Positions 20,965-59,874 of a stretch of DNA of 64,000 bases are shown one piece after another. Numbering within the stretch: the stretch's first letter is position 1; each line of letters begins with the position of its first letter. The position numbers and the translations under genes are program-made. Below the pieces are notes generated by a model. It saw only the letters and a list, made by a program, of their open reading frames with translations. It was not told where the DNA came from and did no database searches. The stretch is from Spirochaetales bacterium Spiro_05 (GTDB lineage Bacteria > Spirochaetota > Spirochaetia > Sphaerochaetales > Sphaerochaetaceae): the NCBI GenBank assembly GCA_001603115.1, contig LVBG01000010.1, positions 1-64,000 on the forward strand, given 5' to 3'.

Positions 20965-20981
20965 TTGGCACGCCTTCTGCA
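20965..20981 (+). promoter_or_regulatory. Sigma-54 promoter of the pspA1-pspC1 operon
   Basis: TTGGCACG, four bases, CTGCA. The -24 GG and -12 GC are 12 nt apart, as required for sigma-54. There is one mismatch to TTGC. Confidence 0.85.
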
Positions 20982-21037
20982 TAAGAGTCTACGTCAATAC
21001 AAACACAACAGCCAACAAATGGCGAAAGGAGAAAATG

Positions 21038-21712
21038 ATGCAGATGTTCAAGAGAATCGCCGATATCTTCAACTCACACGTCAACAGCGTTCTGGATAAG
21101 ATGGAAGATCCGGCAAAGATGATCAGCCTGATGATCACCGAATTGGAGGACACCCAGACCAAGGCTCGTGCCTCCATGGCGGCCCGCAAGGCCGAGCAAA
21201 CCAGCCTCGGGCGTGAGAAGGCGGAGTTTGAGAAATCCGTTCTTCGCTGGGAAGAGCGGGCCAAGCTGGCCATCACCAACGGTCGTGAGGATCTTGCCAG
21301 GGAGGCCTTGGTTGAGAAGAAGTATGCAAGCGAGCAGATCAAGCGTGTAGAGGAGCAATTGGCCACCCTCACCTCAATCCTCGCCAGCCAGGCCTCCCAG
21401 CTTACCCAGATTGCTGACAAGCTCAAGGAAGTCAAGGACAAGCAGCAGATTCTCGTTCAGCGTGCCCGCGGCGCCAAGGAGAAGAAGCAGGTTGCACAGA
21501 CGCTGAAGAACAGCGACAGTGCCGATCTTGCCAGAAAGTTCAGTGAGCTGGAGAGCAAGATTGAGCGGATGGAAGCTGACGCCGAGATGGCAGGCTACCA
21601 TGGGAGCACCTCCAGCAGTGATGAGTTTGCAAAGATGGAGAACGACAGTGCCATTGATGCTGAGCTGGAGAGCTTGAAGAGTTCCATGTCCAAGAAGAAG
21701 GAGCAGAAATAA
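21038..21712 (+). CDS. pspA: PspA/IM30 family protein (copy 1)
   Basis: A 224-residue, almost entirely alpha-helical coiled-coil protein of the PspA/Vipp1 (ESCRT-III-like) family. It begins with the amphipathic membrane-binding helix MFKRIADIFNSHVNSVLDK. In the family it binds stressed inner membrane and restrains the activator PspF. The start at 21038 is preferred to 21035 because AAAGGAG then sits 6 nt away. It overlaps pspC1 by TAATG and is driven by the sigma-54 promoter at 20965. It is homologous to the second copy at 23203. Confidence 0.93.
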   Translation: MQMFKRIADIFNSHVNSVLDKMEDPAKMISLMITELEDTQTKARASMAARKAEQTSLGREKAEFEKSVLRWEERAKLAITNGREDLAREALVEKKYASEQIKRVEEQLATLTSILASQASQLTQIADKLKEVKDKQQILVQRARGAKEKKQVAQTLKNSDSADLARKFSELESKIERMEADAEMAGYHGSTSSSDEFAKMENDSAIDAELESLKSSMSKKKEQK

Positions 21713-21915
21713 TGCAGTACTACAGAGAAGAGAACCGGACCTTGTTCCGGGAAAAGAGCGGCATGATACTCGGCGTCTTCCAAGGCTTGGCCTCCTGGTC
21801 GGGACTTCCGGTGGCACTGCTCAGAATCGTCGGCCTGATCCTGCTCTTCTCAGTGGGGTTTGTTCCGATGACCGTGGCTTACTTGTTGACTGCCTTGATG
21901 TTGCCTTCACGATAG
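21712..21915 (+). CDS. PspC-domain membrane protein (copy 1)
   Basis: A 67-residue PspC domain: an FREKSGMILGVFQGLA loop followed by one or two hydrophobic helices ending near the C-terminus. PspC senses membrane damage and recruits PspA in other bacteria. Its start codon shares a base with the pspA1 stop. It lacks the coiled-coil tail of the second copy at 24228. A terminator follows. Confidence 0.85.
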   Translation: MQYYREENRTLFREKSGMILGVFQGLASWSGLPVALLRIVGLILLFSVGFVPMTVAYLLTALMLPSR

Positions 21916-21958
21916 TCAGCAATTCGCATCTTTCATGACATTCTCGGGGTTTCTCTTT

Positions 21959-21993
21959 GAGCAGGACATTTTCTGGTGTCCTGCTCTCTTTTA
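21959..21993 (+). terminator. Terminator of the pspA1-pspC1 operon
   Basis: Perfect 10-bp arms GAGCAGGACA / TGTCCTGCTC with an 8-nt loop, followed by TCTTTTAT. It abuts the 3' end of the convergent pspF gene. Confidence 0.85.
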
Positions 21994-22989
21994 TACCTGG
22001 TCCTGATACTTGCGGTAGAGGCCCCTGAGTTGGTCGTAGGTGAGCCCAAGCAGCTTGGCTGCCTCTTTTTGGTTGCCTGAAGCTTGCTTCAGCGCTTCCC
22101 GAAGGTAGAGCAGGTCAAGTTCAATACGGGCCTGGTCGAAGAAGGCAAGGTCCAACGTCTGTTCAGCCTTGCCCAAAGTCGGTATCTCTTTTTCTCCGAT
22201 CTTGGCAAAGGGATTCTCAAAGGGATTGAAATCGAGTTGTTCGATCAGGGCACAGTCGCTGCGATACACAGCCCGCTCAACCACATTCTTCAATTCGCGT
22301 ACGTTGCCGGGCCAAGGATAGGTAAGCATCACTGAGAGGACTTCTTCACTGAATGAGGGCATCTCCTTGCGCCCACACTCGAGGGCCATCTTGGAGGCGA
22401 AGTAGGTGGCGAGCAGGATGATGTCCTCTCCCCGTTCCCGCAAGGGGGGCAGGAAGAGCACCTCGAAGCTGAGACGATCGAGCAGATCTTCCTTGAACTT
22501 CCCCTCTTGGCAGAGGGTGGGAAGATCGGCATTGGTTGCCCCGATGATCCTGACATTCGATTCATGGGTGACCGAGGAGCCGACCCGTTCGTAGGTGCCG
22601 TACTCAACCACACGGAGGATTTTCTCCTGGACTTCCAGGGGGATGAGGCCGATCTCATCGAGAAAGAGCGTTCCCCCCTCCGCCTCTTCGAAGCGTCCCT
22701 TGCGGGTCTTCTGGGCACCGGTGAAAGCCCCCTGCTCGTAGCCGAAGAGCTCGGTCTCGATCAGGGACGGGGGAAGGGCTGCGCAGTTGACTGTCACCAG
22801 ATTCTGTTGCCACCTGGGGGAGAGGAAGTGAAGCCTGCGGGCAGCAATCTCCTTGCCGCTTCCCCGTTCACCCACCAGCAGGACGGAGCGATTGACGGTT
22901 GCAGCGCGGCTGAGCTTGCTCTGGAATTCGAGGAAGACTTCGCTTTCACCAAGCGGTTGCTGGTTGTATCCCCCCTGCATGGCTTCCAT
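21991..22989 (-). CDS. pspF: PspF-type sigma-54 activator
   Basis: A 332-residue enhancer-binding protein with no receiver or sensory N-terminal domain, like PspF. The AAA+ domain starts at once: Walker A GERGSGKE at 40-47, the sigma-54 contact loop GAFTGA at 87-92, and Walker B LFLDE at 108-112. The C-terminal Fis-type helix-turn-helix lies at about 300-330 (NQKEAAKLLGLTYDQLRG). The ATG has AAGGAG 6 nt upstream. Lying between two sigma-54-driven pspA operons, it is very probably their activator, and possibly that of the small RNAs at 58.8-59.2 kb. Confidence 0.92.
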   Translation of the reverse strand: MEAMQGGYNQQPLGESEVFLEFQSKLSRAATVNRSVLLVGERGSGKEIAARRLHFLSPRWQQNLVTVNCAALPPSLIETELFGYEQGAFTGAQKTRKGRFEEAEGGTLFLDEIGLIPLEVQEKILRVVEYGTYERVGSSVTHESNVRIIGATNADLPTLCQEGKFKEDLLDRLSFEVLFLPPLRERGEDIILLATYFASKMALECGRKEMPSFSEEVLSVMLTYPWPGNVRELKNVVERAVYRSDCALIEQLDFNPFENPFAKIGEKEIPTLGKAEQTLDLAFFDQARIELDLLYLREALKQASGNQKEAAKLLGLTYDQLRGLYRKYQDQV

Positions 22990-23009
22990 GGTGCACTCCT
23001 TGTTTGGTA

Positions 23010-23027
23010 AATTTTGCCAATCTTGGC
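23010..23027 (+). promoter_or_regulatory. Candidate upstream activator site between pspF and pspA2
   Basis: The AATTTTGCCAATCTTGGC element includes the palindromic arms GCCAA/TTGGC and matches the element at 20882. Its centre is about 140 bp before the pspA2 start and about 30 bp before the pspF ATG, so it could also serve autoregulation of pspF. Confidence 0.45.
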
Positions 23028-23135
23028 AGGTTTCACCAGCGCAAGGGTAGCATGTCTTGCCCGCTGAGAAAAGAGGAAGGGGTGCAATCCCCGGTAAAAT
23101 GGTGACTTAGCGGTATTTTCCCCAAATTCAAAGAG

Positions 23136-23152
23136 TTGGCACGGTTCATGCA
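23136..23152 (+). promoter_or_regulatory. Sigma-54 promoter of the pspA2 operon
   Basis: TTGGCACG, four bases, ATGCA. The -24 GG to -12 GC distance is 12 nt. One mismatch to TTGC. Confidence 0.85.
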
Positions 23153-23202
23153 ACTAGATTTATAGTTACACAGGTGGTACTACTACCTAAGGAGAGAAAG
23201 GT

Positions 23203-23856
23203 ATGGGAGTTTTTTCAAGATTCTTGGATATTGTCAATGCCAACATCAACTCGCTGCTGGACAAGGCTGAAGATCCTGAGAAGATGATCAAGTTGATGAT
23301 GCAGGAGATGGAAGATACCCTGATTGAGCTTAAAAGTTCCTGCGCTGCCAAAATGGCAAGCAGAGCCAAGACCGACAGGGCATACAAGGAAGCACTCAAT
23401 GCAGTGCAGCGCTGGCAGAACCGTGCAGAGCTTGCCATCAGCAAGGGTCGCGAGGATTTGGCAAGGGAAGCATTGCTTGAGAGGAAGACTGCAAAGGCTA
23501 CACTCGAGCAATTTGAGAAAGAGTTGGCAACCTATGATGAGCTGATCAAGACCGCAAAGGGCGAGATCACCCAGATCGAGGATAAGCTGACTACGGTGAA
23601 GCAGAAGTACCAGATGATGGTTGAGCGTGCAAAGCGTGCCCGTGAAGAGCAGGCTGCCCAGGAGACCCTCAAAAGGGCAAGTGAAGGAGCCACCTTCAAC
23701 CGCTTCAACGATATGGAAGAGAAGATCGACCGGATGCAGGCCAACAACGACCTCAATCGCCGACCCTCCTCGCTCGACGAGAAGTTCCGCGATCTTGAAG
23801 AGATGGATGACATCGATGCCGAGATCGAAGAGCTTCGCAAACGCGCCGGCTTGTAA
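23203..23856 (+). CDS. pspA: PspA/IM30 family protein (copy 2)
   Basis: A 217-residue coiled-coil PspA/Vipp1 homologue starting with the same amphipathic helix pattern (MGVFSRFLDIVNANINSLLDK begins the protein). It is clearly paralogous to the copy at 21038. AAGGAGAGAAAGGT precedes the ATG. It heads a four-gene operon (PspA, PspB-like, PspC, DUF4097) under the sigma-54 promoter at 23136. In the family PspA maintains membrane integrity and inhibits PspF. Confidence 0.93.
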   Translation: MGVFSRFLDIVNANINSLLDKAEDPEKMIKLMMQEMEDTLIELKSSCAAKMASRAKTDRAYKEALNAVQRWQNRAELAISKGREDLAREALLERKTAKATLEQFEKELATYDELIKTAKGEITQIEDKLTTVKQKYQMMVERAKRAREEQAAQETLKRASEGATFNRFNDMEEKIDRMQANNDLNRRPSSLDEKFRDLEEMDDIDAEIEELRKRAGL

Positions 23857-58739: not shown

Positions 58740-58836
58740 TTGCGCAAAAAATGCACAGAAATGAAGGGGTGTGCAAACGCTACACACTTTTTCGACCAGC
58801 AATACGGAAATGCAAGCGTGAAAGAGGGATTATGAG

Positions 58837-58853
58837 TTGGCACGGTTGTTGCA
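58837..58853 (+). promoter_or_regulatory. Sigma-54 promoter of small RNA 1
   Basis: TTGGCACG, four bases, TTGCA: a perfect -24/-12 consensus with the required 12-nt spacing. Confidence 0.92.
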
Positions 58854-58863
58854 TTAGAATAGA

Positions 58864-58959
58864 CAGAACAGAGCAACACAATTTTTTTCATACTCCTCCT
58901 TTTTCATACTGACAGGGTGCCAAAAGATTTTCCAATCAGCTTTTGGCACCCTTCCTTTT
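58864..58959 (+). ncRNA. Candidate sigma-54-dependent small RNA 1
   Basis: A roughly 96-nt unit. The predicted start, 12 nt after the -12 C, coincides with the first base of the block CAGAACAGAGCAACA shared with small RNA 2. Then follow a seven-U run, the unpaired anti-Shine-Dalgarno stretch CUCCUCC (58893-58899), and a terminator hairpin. No open reading frame of note. A protein-coding role is excluded by length; family not recognised. Confidence 0.75.
58915..58959 (+). terminator. Terminator of small RNA 1
   Basis: Perfect 12-bp arms GGGTGCCAAAAG / CTTTTGGCACCC, 13-nt loop, then TTCCTTTTG. Confidence 0.9.
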
Positions 58960-59088
58960 GCCCTGACAGCAATGCTTGTGTGCAATTTTGAAATAGTGTT
59001 ACTTTTTTTCACAGCCCAATTATGCACAGTCATGACTTAACCTTTACTTTTGGCAGGTATTTTGTACCTATAGTATGTATTTTAAAAG

Positions 59089-59105
59089 TTGGCACGCTCC
59101 TTGCA
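59089..59105 (+). promoter_or_regulatory. Sigma-54 promoter of small RNA 2
   Basis: TTGGCACG, four bases, TTGCA: perfect consensus. A short palindrome, GGTATTTTGTACC, lies about 25 bp upstream (59056-59068). Confidence 0.92.
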
Positions 59106-59115
59106 ATAGTATAGG

Positions 59116-59219
59116 CAGAACAGAGCAACAGTTTTTTTCAAACCTCCTTAAAGTGTGATTTCTTTGGTGCCAGCGGTTCTCTCTCCCCACCCCACAATAC
59201 CGCTGGCACCATCTTTTTG
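59116..59219 (+). ncRNA. Candidate sigma-54-dependent small RNA 2
   Basis: A roughly 104-nt unit starting with the same 15-nt block as small RNA 1 (59116-59130), followed by a U-run and ACCUCCUUA (59142-59150), which equals the 3'-terminal anti-Shine-Dalgarno of bacterial 16S rRNA. The terminator loop is a long C/U-rich stretch (CUCUCUCCCCACCCC), another candidate for G-rich targets. Confidence 0.75.
59166..59219 (+). terminator. Terminator of small RNA 2
   Basis: Perfect 12-bp arms GGTGCCAGCGGT / ACCGCTGGCACC, 21-nt loop, then ATCTTTTTG. Confidence 0.88.
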
Positions 59220-59253
59220 TCCGCATCCCACCCTTCCGGCAGACTTGATAGTT

Positions 59254-59262
59254 TGCTATAGT
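59254..59262 (+). promoter_or_regulatory. rlmE extended -10 promoter, predicted leaderless
   Basis: TTGCTATAGT contains an extended -10 (TGC TATAGT, hexamer 59257-59262). The ATG at 59269 is at +1. The -35 at the expected place, TTCCGG, is poor, which fits an extended -10. Confidence 0.6.
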
Positions 59263-59268
59263 CAAGAC

Positions 59269-59874
59269 ATGGCAACCAGCAGAAGGGACCGTGCAGACTC
59301 CTACACCAAACGTGCACACAAAGAGGGCTACCCTGCCCGTTCCGTCTATAAGCTGGAAGAACTCCAGCAATCCTTCAACCTCGTGAAGCGAGGGGACACC
59401 GTCCTTGACGTAGGAGCTGCCCCCGGGTCATGGACTCTTTACACACACAATGAGCTGATCAAGGGAGAGGGAAGAATCATAGCGGTAGATCTCAATCCCT
59501 TGAATCTCAACCCCGTCCCTCACACGGTCACCAGCTATGTCGGGGATGCCTTCAGCAAAGAAATTCGTCCCACTCTTGTGGAACAAGGCCCGTATGATGT
59601 CATTATCAGCGATGCTGCTCCCATGACCATGGGAAACAGGGCAGTCGATACCGCGCGCAGCGAGTATCTTGCAGAACAGGTAATCTATCTTGCACAGGAG
59701 CACCTGAAGGTGCATGGAAACCTCGTGGTGAAAATTTTCCAAGGTGGAGGGCAGGTCGAACTGCTCAAGACAATGCGCACCTTCTTCACAAAGGTGAAGC
59801 CCTTCAAGCCAAAAGCCTGCAGGGACGACTCCTTTGAGATCTATCTTGTTGGTTTGGACAGGAAGGAAGGCTGA
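59269..59874 (+). CDS. rlmE: 23S rRNA (uridine2552-2'-O)-methyltransferase RlmE
   Basis: A 201-residue FtsJ/RrmJ family enzyme. SAM loop DVGAAPGSW (about 47-55), the catalytic K-D-K-E set including SDAAP (about 103-107) and VVKIFQGG. It methylates U2552 in the 23S A-loop. There is no Shine-Dalgarno, consistent with a leaderless start; upstream in-frame codons lie in the small-RNA terminator region. It ends 1 nt from the convergent TPR gene. Confidence 0.92.
   Translation: MATSRRDRADSYTKRAHKEGYPARSVYKLEELQQSFNLVKRGDTVLDVGAAPGSWTLYTHNELIKGEGRIIAVDLNPLNLNPVPHTVTSYVGDAFSKEIRPTLVEQGPYDVIISDAAPMTMGNRAVDTARSEYLAEQVIYLAQEHLKVHGNLVVKIFQGGGQVELLKTMRTFFTKVKPFKPKACRDDSFEIYLVGLDRKEG

Follow-up and report, generated by a model that had tools for sequence, protein, structure and literature searches.

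The window analyzed here is a 64-kb stretch of the genome of Spirochaetales bacterium Spiro_05 (Sphaerochaetaceae). It carries two tandem units on the + strand, each preceded by a perfect sigma-54 promoter. The promoter sequence TTGGCACN5TTGC has just two occurrences in the window, at 58837 and 59089, with both strands searched; base composition predicts 0.14 perfect TGGCACN5TTGC sites per window, both strands counted, compared with the two seen. The first promoter (58837..58852, TTGGCACGGTTGTTGC) is kept in relatives and stands ahead of unit 1, a predicted small RNA of ~96 nt and type A (58864..58959, + strand), delineated by a model match (E 3.8e-7) and by folding. The second (59089..59104, + strand, TTGGCACGCTCCTTGC) follows at a spacing of 252 bp and precedes unit 2, a predicted ~104-nt small RNA of type B (59116..59219, + strand; model match E 2e-10, and folding). 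Both start sites were predicted from promoter position. The units open with an identical 15-nt block, CAGAACAGAGCAACA (58864..58878 and 59116..59130), which begins 12 nt past the -12 C and is defined by the sequence and the core alignment. A run of seven T (58882-58888 in unit 1, 59132-59138 in unit 2) leads to a putative anti-Shine-Dalgarno segment, CTCCTCC at 58893..58899 and CCTCC at 59143..59147, unpaired in both predicted folds. Each unit ends in an intrinsic terminator: in unit 1 (58914..58959) the stem is formed by 58914-58926/58940-58952 and followed by the tail TCCTTTT, and in unit 2 (59165..59219) by 59165-59177/59199-59211 with the tail TCTTTTTG. The C-rich loop of the second terminator (59178..59198, + strand, TCTCTCTCCCCACCCCACAAT) is a second predicted pairing segment.

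This layout confirms most of what a first-pass annotation had read from the letters, namely two perfect sigma-54 promoters 252 bp apart with a ~100-nt unit behind each, the same 15-nt block 12 nt after the -12 C, and a seven-T run with a CCTCC-type stretch in both. The terminator stems, described there as perfect and 12 bp long, measure 13 bp in both units. The further statement that everything except the stems is similar holds for the 5' block, the T7 run and the CCTCC segment; it fails for the linkers and loops, which differ between units 1 and 2, the C-rich loop UCUCUCUCCCCACCCC being confined to unit 2 of the two, and the stems themselves have GGTGCCA/TGGCACC in common. Folding energies lay well below those of dinucleotide shuffles (z -3.6 for unit 1 and -4.6 for unit 2), mainly through the terminators, and the 5' arm was predicted to be open in both units, save for a small hairpin in unit 2.

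The usual downstream neighbor of the units is an rlmE/ftsJ-type methyltransferase gene, found in the window at 59269..59874 on the + strand (PF01728, 8.2e-43) and not thought to be part of the small-RNA transcripts. Among the matches listed, 56 of 79 sources have rlmE downstream on the same strand at no more than 1.5 kb, and 59 of 79 have a divergent rhomboid-type gene upstream within that distance; 47 have both and 11 neither, some sources ending at contig edges. The frequent same-strand rlmE, seen in the window likewise, would fit units that act in cis as sigma-54-dependent leaders or attenuators of rlmE rather than as free small RNAs. We regard this as very unlikely: each window unit has its own terminator, up to four units stand in a row elsewhere, and rlmE seems to possess its own extended -10 (59254-59262) past terminator 2. 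Moreover, the unit lies away from rlmE in L095, L125, L152 and L165, behind a CRS1_YhbY-type gene in L105, L108 and L144 (Pfam for L108), and next to an rlmE on the opposite strand in L119. Because some loci are elsewhere, the small RNA is not bound to rlmE. In the window (59254-59269), the extended -10 (TGCTATAGT) sits very near the ATG, so that the rlmE mRNA may be almost leaderless, and a similar arrangement of extended -10 and ATG was seen at rlmE in several relatives. Both rlmE and the CRS1_YhbY-type gene are ribosome-related neighbors.

To follow the units beyond the window, relatives were first gathered by a pattern, and a sequence-only model of the 5' core was built from 29 units. The model matched 113 of 139 Sphaerochaetaceae genomes at E<=1e-4, leaving 26 without a match, and 124 of 139 at E<=0.05. 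At the latter threshold, matches were found in 66 of 75 good assemblies and in 20 of 22 genera, with nine good assemblies lacking one. A phylum sample of 392 genomes comprised 36 from Sphaerochaetaceae, 32 of which matched at E<=0.01, and 356 from outside the family, none of which matched at E<=1e-4 (best E 1.5e-4). Weak partial matches with E from 1.5e-4 to 0.01 appeared in 35 of these 356 genomes, compared with ~3.6 expected from the E-value, and are taken as composition effects. A cmsearch of 82 sources returned 131 matches among those listed; three came from non-spirochaete records (L094, L147, L173), had no promoter and were dropped. The remaining 128 copies, one of them in the viral-collection contig L174, are spread over 79 sources, among the matches listed, with two units in 47, one in 31 and three in a single source. 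The copy in L174 is a single type B unit. Four units were found in the single-contig genome G094. Hosts among the matches listed include Sphaerochaeta, Bullifex, Pleomorphochaeta, Candidatus Ornithospirochaeta, Candidatus Aphodenecus and others, and the rlmE protein of one source, L161, is identical to that of the window. Simple patterns divided the copies into 72 type B and 56 type A, or into 56 and 56, with some units misplaced (e.g., L100:4822, L137).

A sigma-54 promoter lies directly upstream of 127 of the 128 copies among the matches listed, and a contig edge truncates the last. Promoter letters are not part of the model, yet most loci of its 29 sequences had been gathered with a pattern that included the promoter. 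Among the matches listed, 113 of these 127 promoters fit the strict pattern and 14 show a single departure. The promoter, 5' block and CCTCC, on whose conservation in close relatives the first-pass annotation had staked its claim, are kept there, and the claim survived. Its author had also recognized no known family, in line with a search of the whole window against Rfam 15, which gave no match at gathering score; at E<=5, only SNORA22, tfoR and SNORA57 appeared within 58760-59260, all far under their gathering scores. Membership in any Rfam 15 family was rejected on this basis.

In eight aligned sequences, window included, core identity was 0.92 in unit 1 and 0.98 in unit 2, stem identity 0.93-0.97, C-rich loop identity 0.95 and promoter identity 0.86-0.88, whereas the spacers between promoter and core reached 0.64 and 0.75 and the flanks only 0.52-0.67. 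Cores, stems and promoters are thus more identical than the flanks, and the earlier view that the units are duplicated and conserved finds support. What stays constant throughout the family is ACAGAGCAA(0-2 A)CAGTTTTT...CCTCC, with GAGCAA, CA and T5 invariant in 29 of 29 aligned cores. The 15-nt block varies in its initial letters, and GAGCAA does not always stand equally far from the -12 C: among the matches listed, the gap is 12-18 nt in 104 of the 109 copies measured. Between genera, the stems change and the 5' arm stays, as does the type B loop CUCUCCC(C)ACCC, with some variants; the alignment of 36 type B units is unreliable in the stems. Among the matches listed, 110 of 112 distinct units contain CCTCC, which the predicted fold leaves unpaired in 95 of these 110 and pairs in 15, while the type B C-rich loop was predicted to be unpaired in 53 of 53 scored. 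The units thereby display a conserved, unpaired CCUCC-type segment, as anti-Shine-Dalgarno small RNAs do as a kind. Because the T run varies from 5 to 9 letters by single-base length changes over the 112 distinct units and closed ATG frames of at least 10 codons occur in just five (both among the matches listed), the units appear non-coding, as first annotated. A protein-coding reading was rejected on the same two observations.

Upstream regions of the small-RNA promoters have in common a 17-bp palindrome, TGTGMAANNNTTKCACA, which we predict to be an enhancer. With at most two departures, it was found upstream of 80 of 125 promoters among the matches listed, versus 0.4 in shuffles; the motif was derived from the same sequences later scored, and the control consisted of simple letter shuffles. 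Of the 45 promoters without it, 24 (among the matches listed) sit less than 160 bp behind the promoter of another unit and could share the palindrome sites of that neighbor. The window's own sites are imperfect. Two predicted sites with two departures each precede unit 1, TGCGCAAAAAATGCACA at 58741..58757 and TGTGCAAACGCTACACA at 58770..58786, the latter centered ~60 bp upstream of promoter 1; in the predicted enhancer region of unit 2 (58979..59013), the best site, TGTTACTTTTTTTCACA, has three departures. Mean identity in the eight aligned sequences, window included, was 0.73 for 58741-58786 and 0.89 for 58979-59013. In 14 whole genomes, 18 of 55 palindrome sites with at most one departure were located at small-RNA loci, in 11 genomes; none lay at the small-RNA loci of G000, G094 and G077. 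A backward control pattern gave 18 matches in total in the same 14 genomes, which offers a partly independent check of the palindrome. In G094, a palindrome with one departure was seen ~0.75 kb upstream of the rpoS-like promoter.

The sigma-54 DNA-binding domain of RpoN was detected in all 14 genomes tested, and Hfq in none of them; control genomes were positive in both searches. The units therefore combine the features of sigma-54-dependent small RNAs as a kind: a -24/-12 promoter at the right distance, upstream sites and RpoN in the genome. Since sigma-54 promoters call for an enhancer-binding protein, control by such a protein, as proposed in the first-pass annotation, is supported. The genome of the window encodes six enhancer-binding proteins. 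EBP1 and EBP2 are both of the NtrC type, EBP1 lying with a histidine kinase near an rpoS-like gene and EBP2 having a different kinase; PspF is encoded in the window, and there are three others.

Related sigma-54 promoters precede genes for an rpoS-like sigma factor, hsp20, a ferritin/Dps-like protein, pspA and pdxA; 30 such loci were examined, several of which represent other genes or sites arising by chance. Allowing two departures at most, 13 of 18 rpoS-like and 3 of 5 hsp20 promoters have GTGTCANNNTGACAC upstream; for pspA, GGTAAANTTTACC precedes 3 of 4 promoters. Both motifs were derived from the very sequences scored. In L188 (3346-10143), and also in L185, L186 and most of L273-L291, the rpoS-like gene with its sigma-54 promoter, often with GTGTCANNNTGACAC sites, has an NtrC-type regulator and a kinase a few kb away. 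This sigma-54-to-rpoS-like arrangement of Sphaerochaetaceae resembles the Rrp2-RpoN-RpoS cascade of Borrelia. Within the window, pspF lies between two pspA genes (20966-23856) whose sigma-54 promoters (20966, 23137) are one base from perfect, and both genes have GGTAAANTTTACC-like upstream sites.

These loci bear on the possibility that EBP1 or PspF is the activator and that the small RNAs are part of a stress regulon, either sigma-54/rpoS-like or psp. The rpoS-like, hsp20, ferritin/Dps-like and pspA genes have sigma-54 promoters of like form, one of 18 rpoS-like promoters (L289) has the small-RNA palindrome with two departures, and EBP1 was the sole enhancer-binding protein at E<=1e-20 in two RNA-carrying genomes, G006 and G130, although these are incomplete (92% and 88%). 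At most promoters, however, the motifs differ: GTGTCANNNTGACAC at rpoS-like and hsp20 genes, GGTAAANTTTACC at pspA and TGTGMAANNNTTKCACA at the small RNAs. We consider this reading possible, albeit rather doubtful. Because GTGTCANNNTGACAC and GGTAAANTTTACC are unlike the small-RNA palindrome, a different activator is likely, and PspF and membrane stress are disfavored. The difference in enhancer motif thus counts against PspF as a candidate, and the earlier hint at membrane stress found no support, since the two pspA promoters of the window carry the GGTAAANTTTACC motif. An NtrC-type regulator distinct from EBP1, the one beside the rpoS-like gene, is the likeliest activator. EBP2 is the leading, if weakly supported, candidate; it was found in 116 of 139 Sphaerochaetaceae genomes and is the most widespread of the other candidates. 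Its presence fails to track the RNA cleanly: at a cut-off of best E below 1e-120, it is absent in 15 of 113 genomes with the RNA, one of them 98% complete, and also in 8 of the 26 genomes that had no RNA match at E<=1e-4. The palindrome TGTGMAANNNTTKCACA, with at most two departures, was not found within ~1.5 kb of EBP2 in four genomes (L176/L220, L221, L222, L223).

Considering these features, we think it probable that the units are tandem copies of trans-acting small RNAs of Sphaerochaetaceae that are enhancer-controlled and cover Shine-Dalgarno sequences without Hfq. The sigma-54 promoter and upstream TGTGMAANNNTTKCACA, both seen in the DNA, would place the copies under an enhancer-binding protein, and since the two imply such a protein, the RNAs would be expected to remain off before a signal is sensed. 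Each RNA would then present a 5' arm, ACAGAGCAA..CAGUUUUUUUCAA(A)CCUCCUU, that is largely unstructured and under strong constraint, and end in an intrinsic terminator whose stem is free to change, type B adding a CU-rich terminator loop. Arm and loop may pair with the Shine-Dalgarno sequence and adjacent letters of several mRNAs, which would prevent translation from starting and cause the mRNAs to decay. Such pairing must work without Hfq, because Hfq was not found in the genomes tested. An action on ribosome-binding sites is plausible from the sequence of the RNAs.

A search with the 19-nt complement of the unit-2 core revealed no conserved mRNA site in the whole genomes of 26 congeners. As no long conserved complement was found among them, pairing, if real, should be short and centered on the Shine-Dalgarno sequence, rely on other letters or involve many targets. 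CCTCC resembles any 16S tail, so the anti-Shine-Dalgarno letters by themselves say little about specific targets. The absence of a long complementary site in these congeners also fits a conserved 5' arm that mainly binds a protein, such as an RNA chaperone or ribosomal factor, with the RNAs acting as a sponge and the anti-Shine-Dalgarno letters being incidental. The U and CU tracts could bind proteins, and the invariant letters beyond CCTCC (GAGCAA, CA and T5 in 29 of 29 cores) exceed the needs of Shine-Dalgarno pairing. We nevertheless judge a sponge unlikely, given that 110 of 112 distinct units among the matches listed retain CCTCC and that type B displays a second, different C-rich segment in its terminator loop, as in LhrC. 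Less likely still is a sigma-54-switched global brake on translation, in which RNAs whose (CA)CCUCCUU arm copies the 16S rRNA 3' tail would cover Shine-Dalgarno sequences broadly, with no Hfq found, and mRNAs that are leaderless or poor in such sequences, possibly including rlmE, would escape.

The complement search also returned a recurrent extra match in 24 of the 26 congeners, a same-sense small-RNA candidate with anti-Shine-Dalgarno letters. Eight loci were examined (L249, ~1457-1571 on the - strand; L250, L226, L228, L232, L236, L241 and L245), and the genome of the window has its own at G000:C49:5522-5540. The candidate shows a sigma-70-like promoter, TTGACG-N17-TACTGT, followed by UUUUUUCUAACCUCCUUUU; its terminator, CCCCCAGGG-UUUAACCUCCUUUU-CCCUGGGGG, displays another CCUCC in the loop. 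In L249 and L250, it bears a weak likeness to LhrC (E 0.11-0.22, below gathering score).

For the two window units and their relatives, LhrC1-5 of Listeria (RF00616) offer the closest parallel, and the best reading by analogy is that the RNAs may work like them. According to excerpts of the published account, LhrC RNAs are multicopy, 111-114 nt long, and carry redundant CU-rich segments in a stem-loop, a single strand and the terminator; they are controlled by a two-component system, bind lapB mRNA and hinder its translation through three redundant CU-rich sites with no need for Hfq (PMC4132741). On the basis of those excerpts, the likeness comprises the multicopy design, the CU-rich segments, one of them in the terminator loop (type B only), and independence from Hfq, predicted for our units, whereas the CU-rich sites number three in LhrC, two in type B and one in type A. 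LhrC is under LisR control; sigma-54 promoters were found at our units, which also differ in phylum, 5' block and stems. The covariance model RF00616 matched neither window unit at E<=5, and because the units fail this test, the resemblance is a likeness and not membership.

Sigma-54 control recalls other small RNAs. Qrr of Vibrio, as described in part of one report, are transcribed by sigma-54 RNA polymerase via enhancer-binding proteins at two upstream sites (PMC10162802). To that extent, our units are alike in having sigma-54 promoters and upstream sites, while the upstream sites and 5' arm are different and Rfam gave no match. Control by LuxO is a further mark of Qrr. Qrr needs Hfq, which was not found in the 14 genomes tested here. 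The enterobacterial GlmY/GlmZ are, in the portions of the reports available, related sigma-54-controlled small RNAs (PMC3162934) that work with RapZ on glmS (PMC7073468). Sigma-54 control is common to them and our units, which again had no Rfam match. The CcsR or cuckoo RNAs have anti-Shine-Dalgarno-like CCUCC loops. Excerpts of a report on these alphaproteobacterial RNAs describe tandem small RNAs with a role in stress defense, which are transcribed from a single RpoHI/RpoHII promoter in an operon with a DUF1127 gene and cleaved by RNase E (PMC10253847). In contrast, each unit here has its own sigma-54 promoter and terminator.

A search of open-access papers found no description of small RNAs in Sphaerochaeta. 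Sigma-54-controlled and anti-Shine-Dalgarno small RNAs are each known as kinds; as far as our searches reach, their combination, the host group and the tandem design of two types are new. Among the matches listed, testable loci are available in named strains, including Sphaerochaeta halotolerans 4-11 and Bullifex porci. Together, our results point to what would be a small-RNA family extending over an entire family of spirochaetes, whose promoter, enhancer, RNA and terminator can all be read in the DNA. It would join two designs known apart, sigma-54-controlled RNAs and multicopy anti-Shine-Dalgarno RNAs, in bacteria where no Hfq was found.
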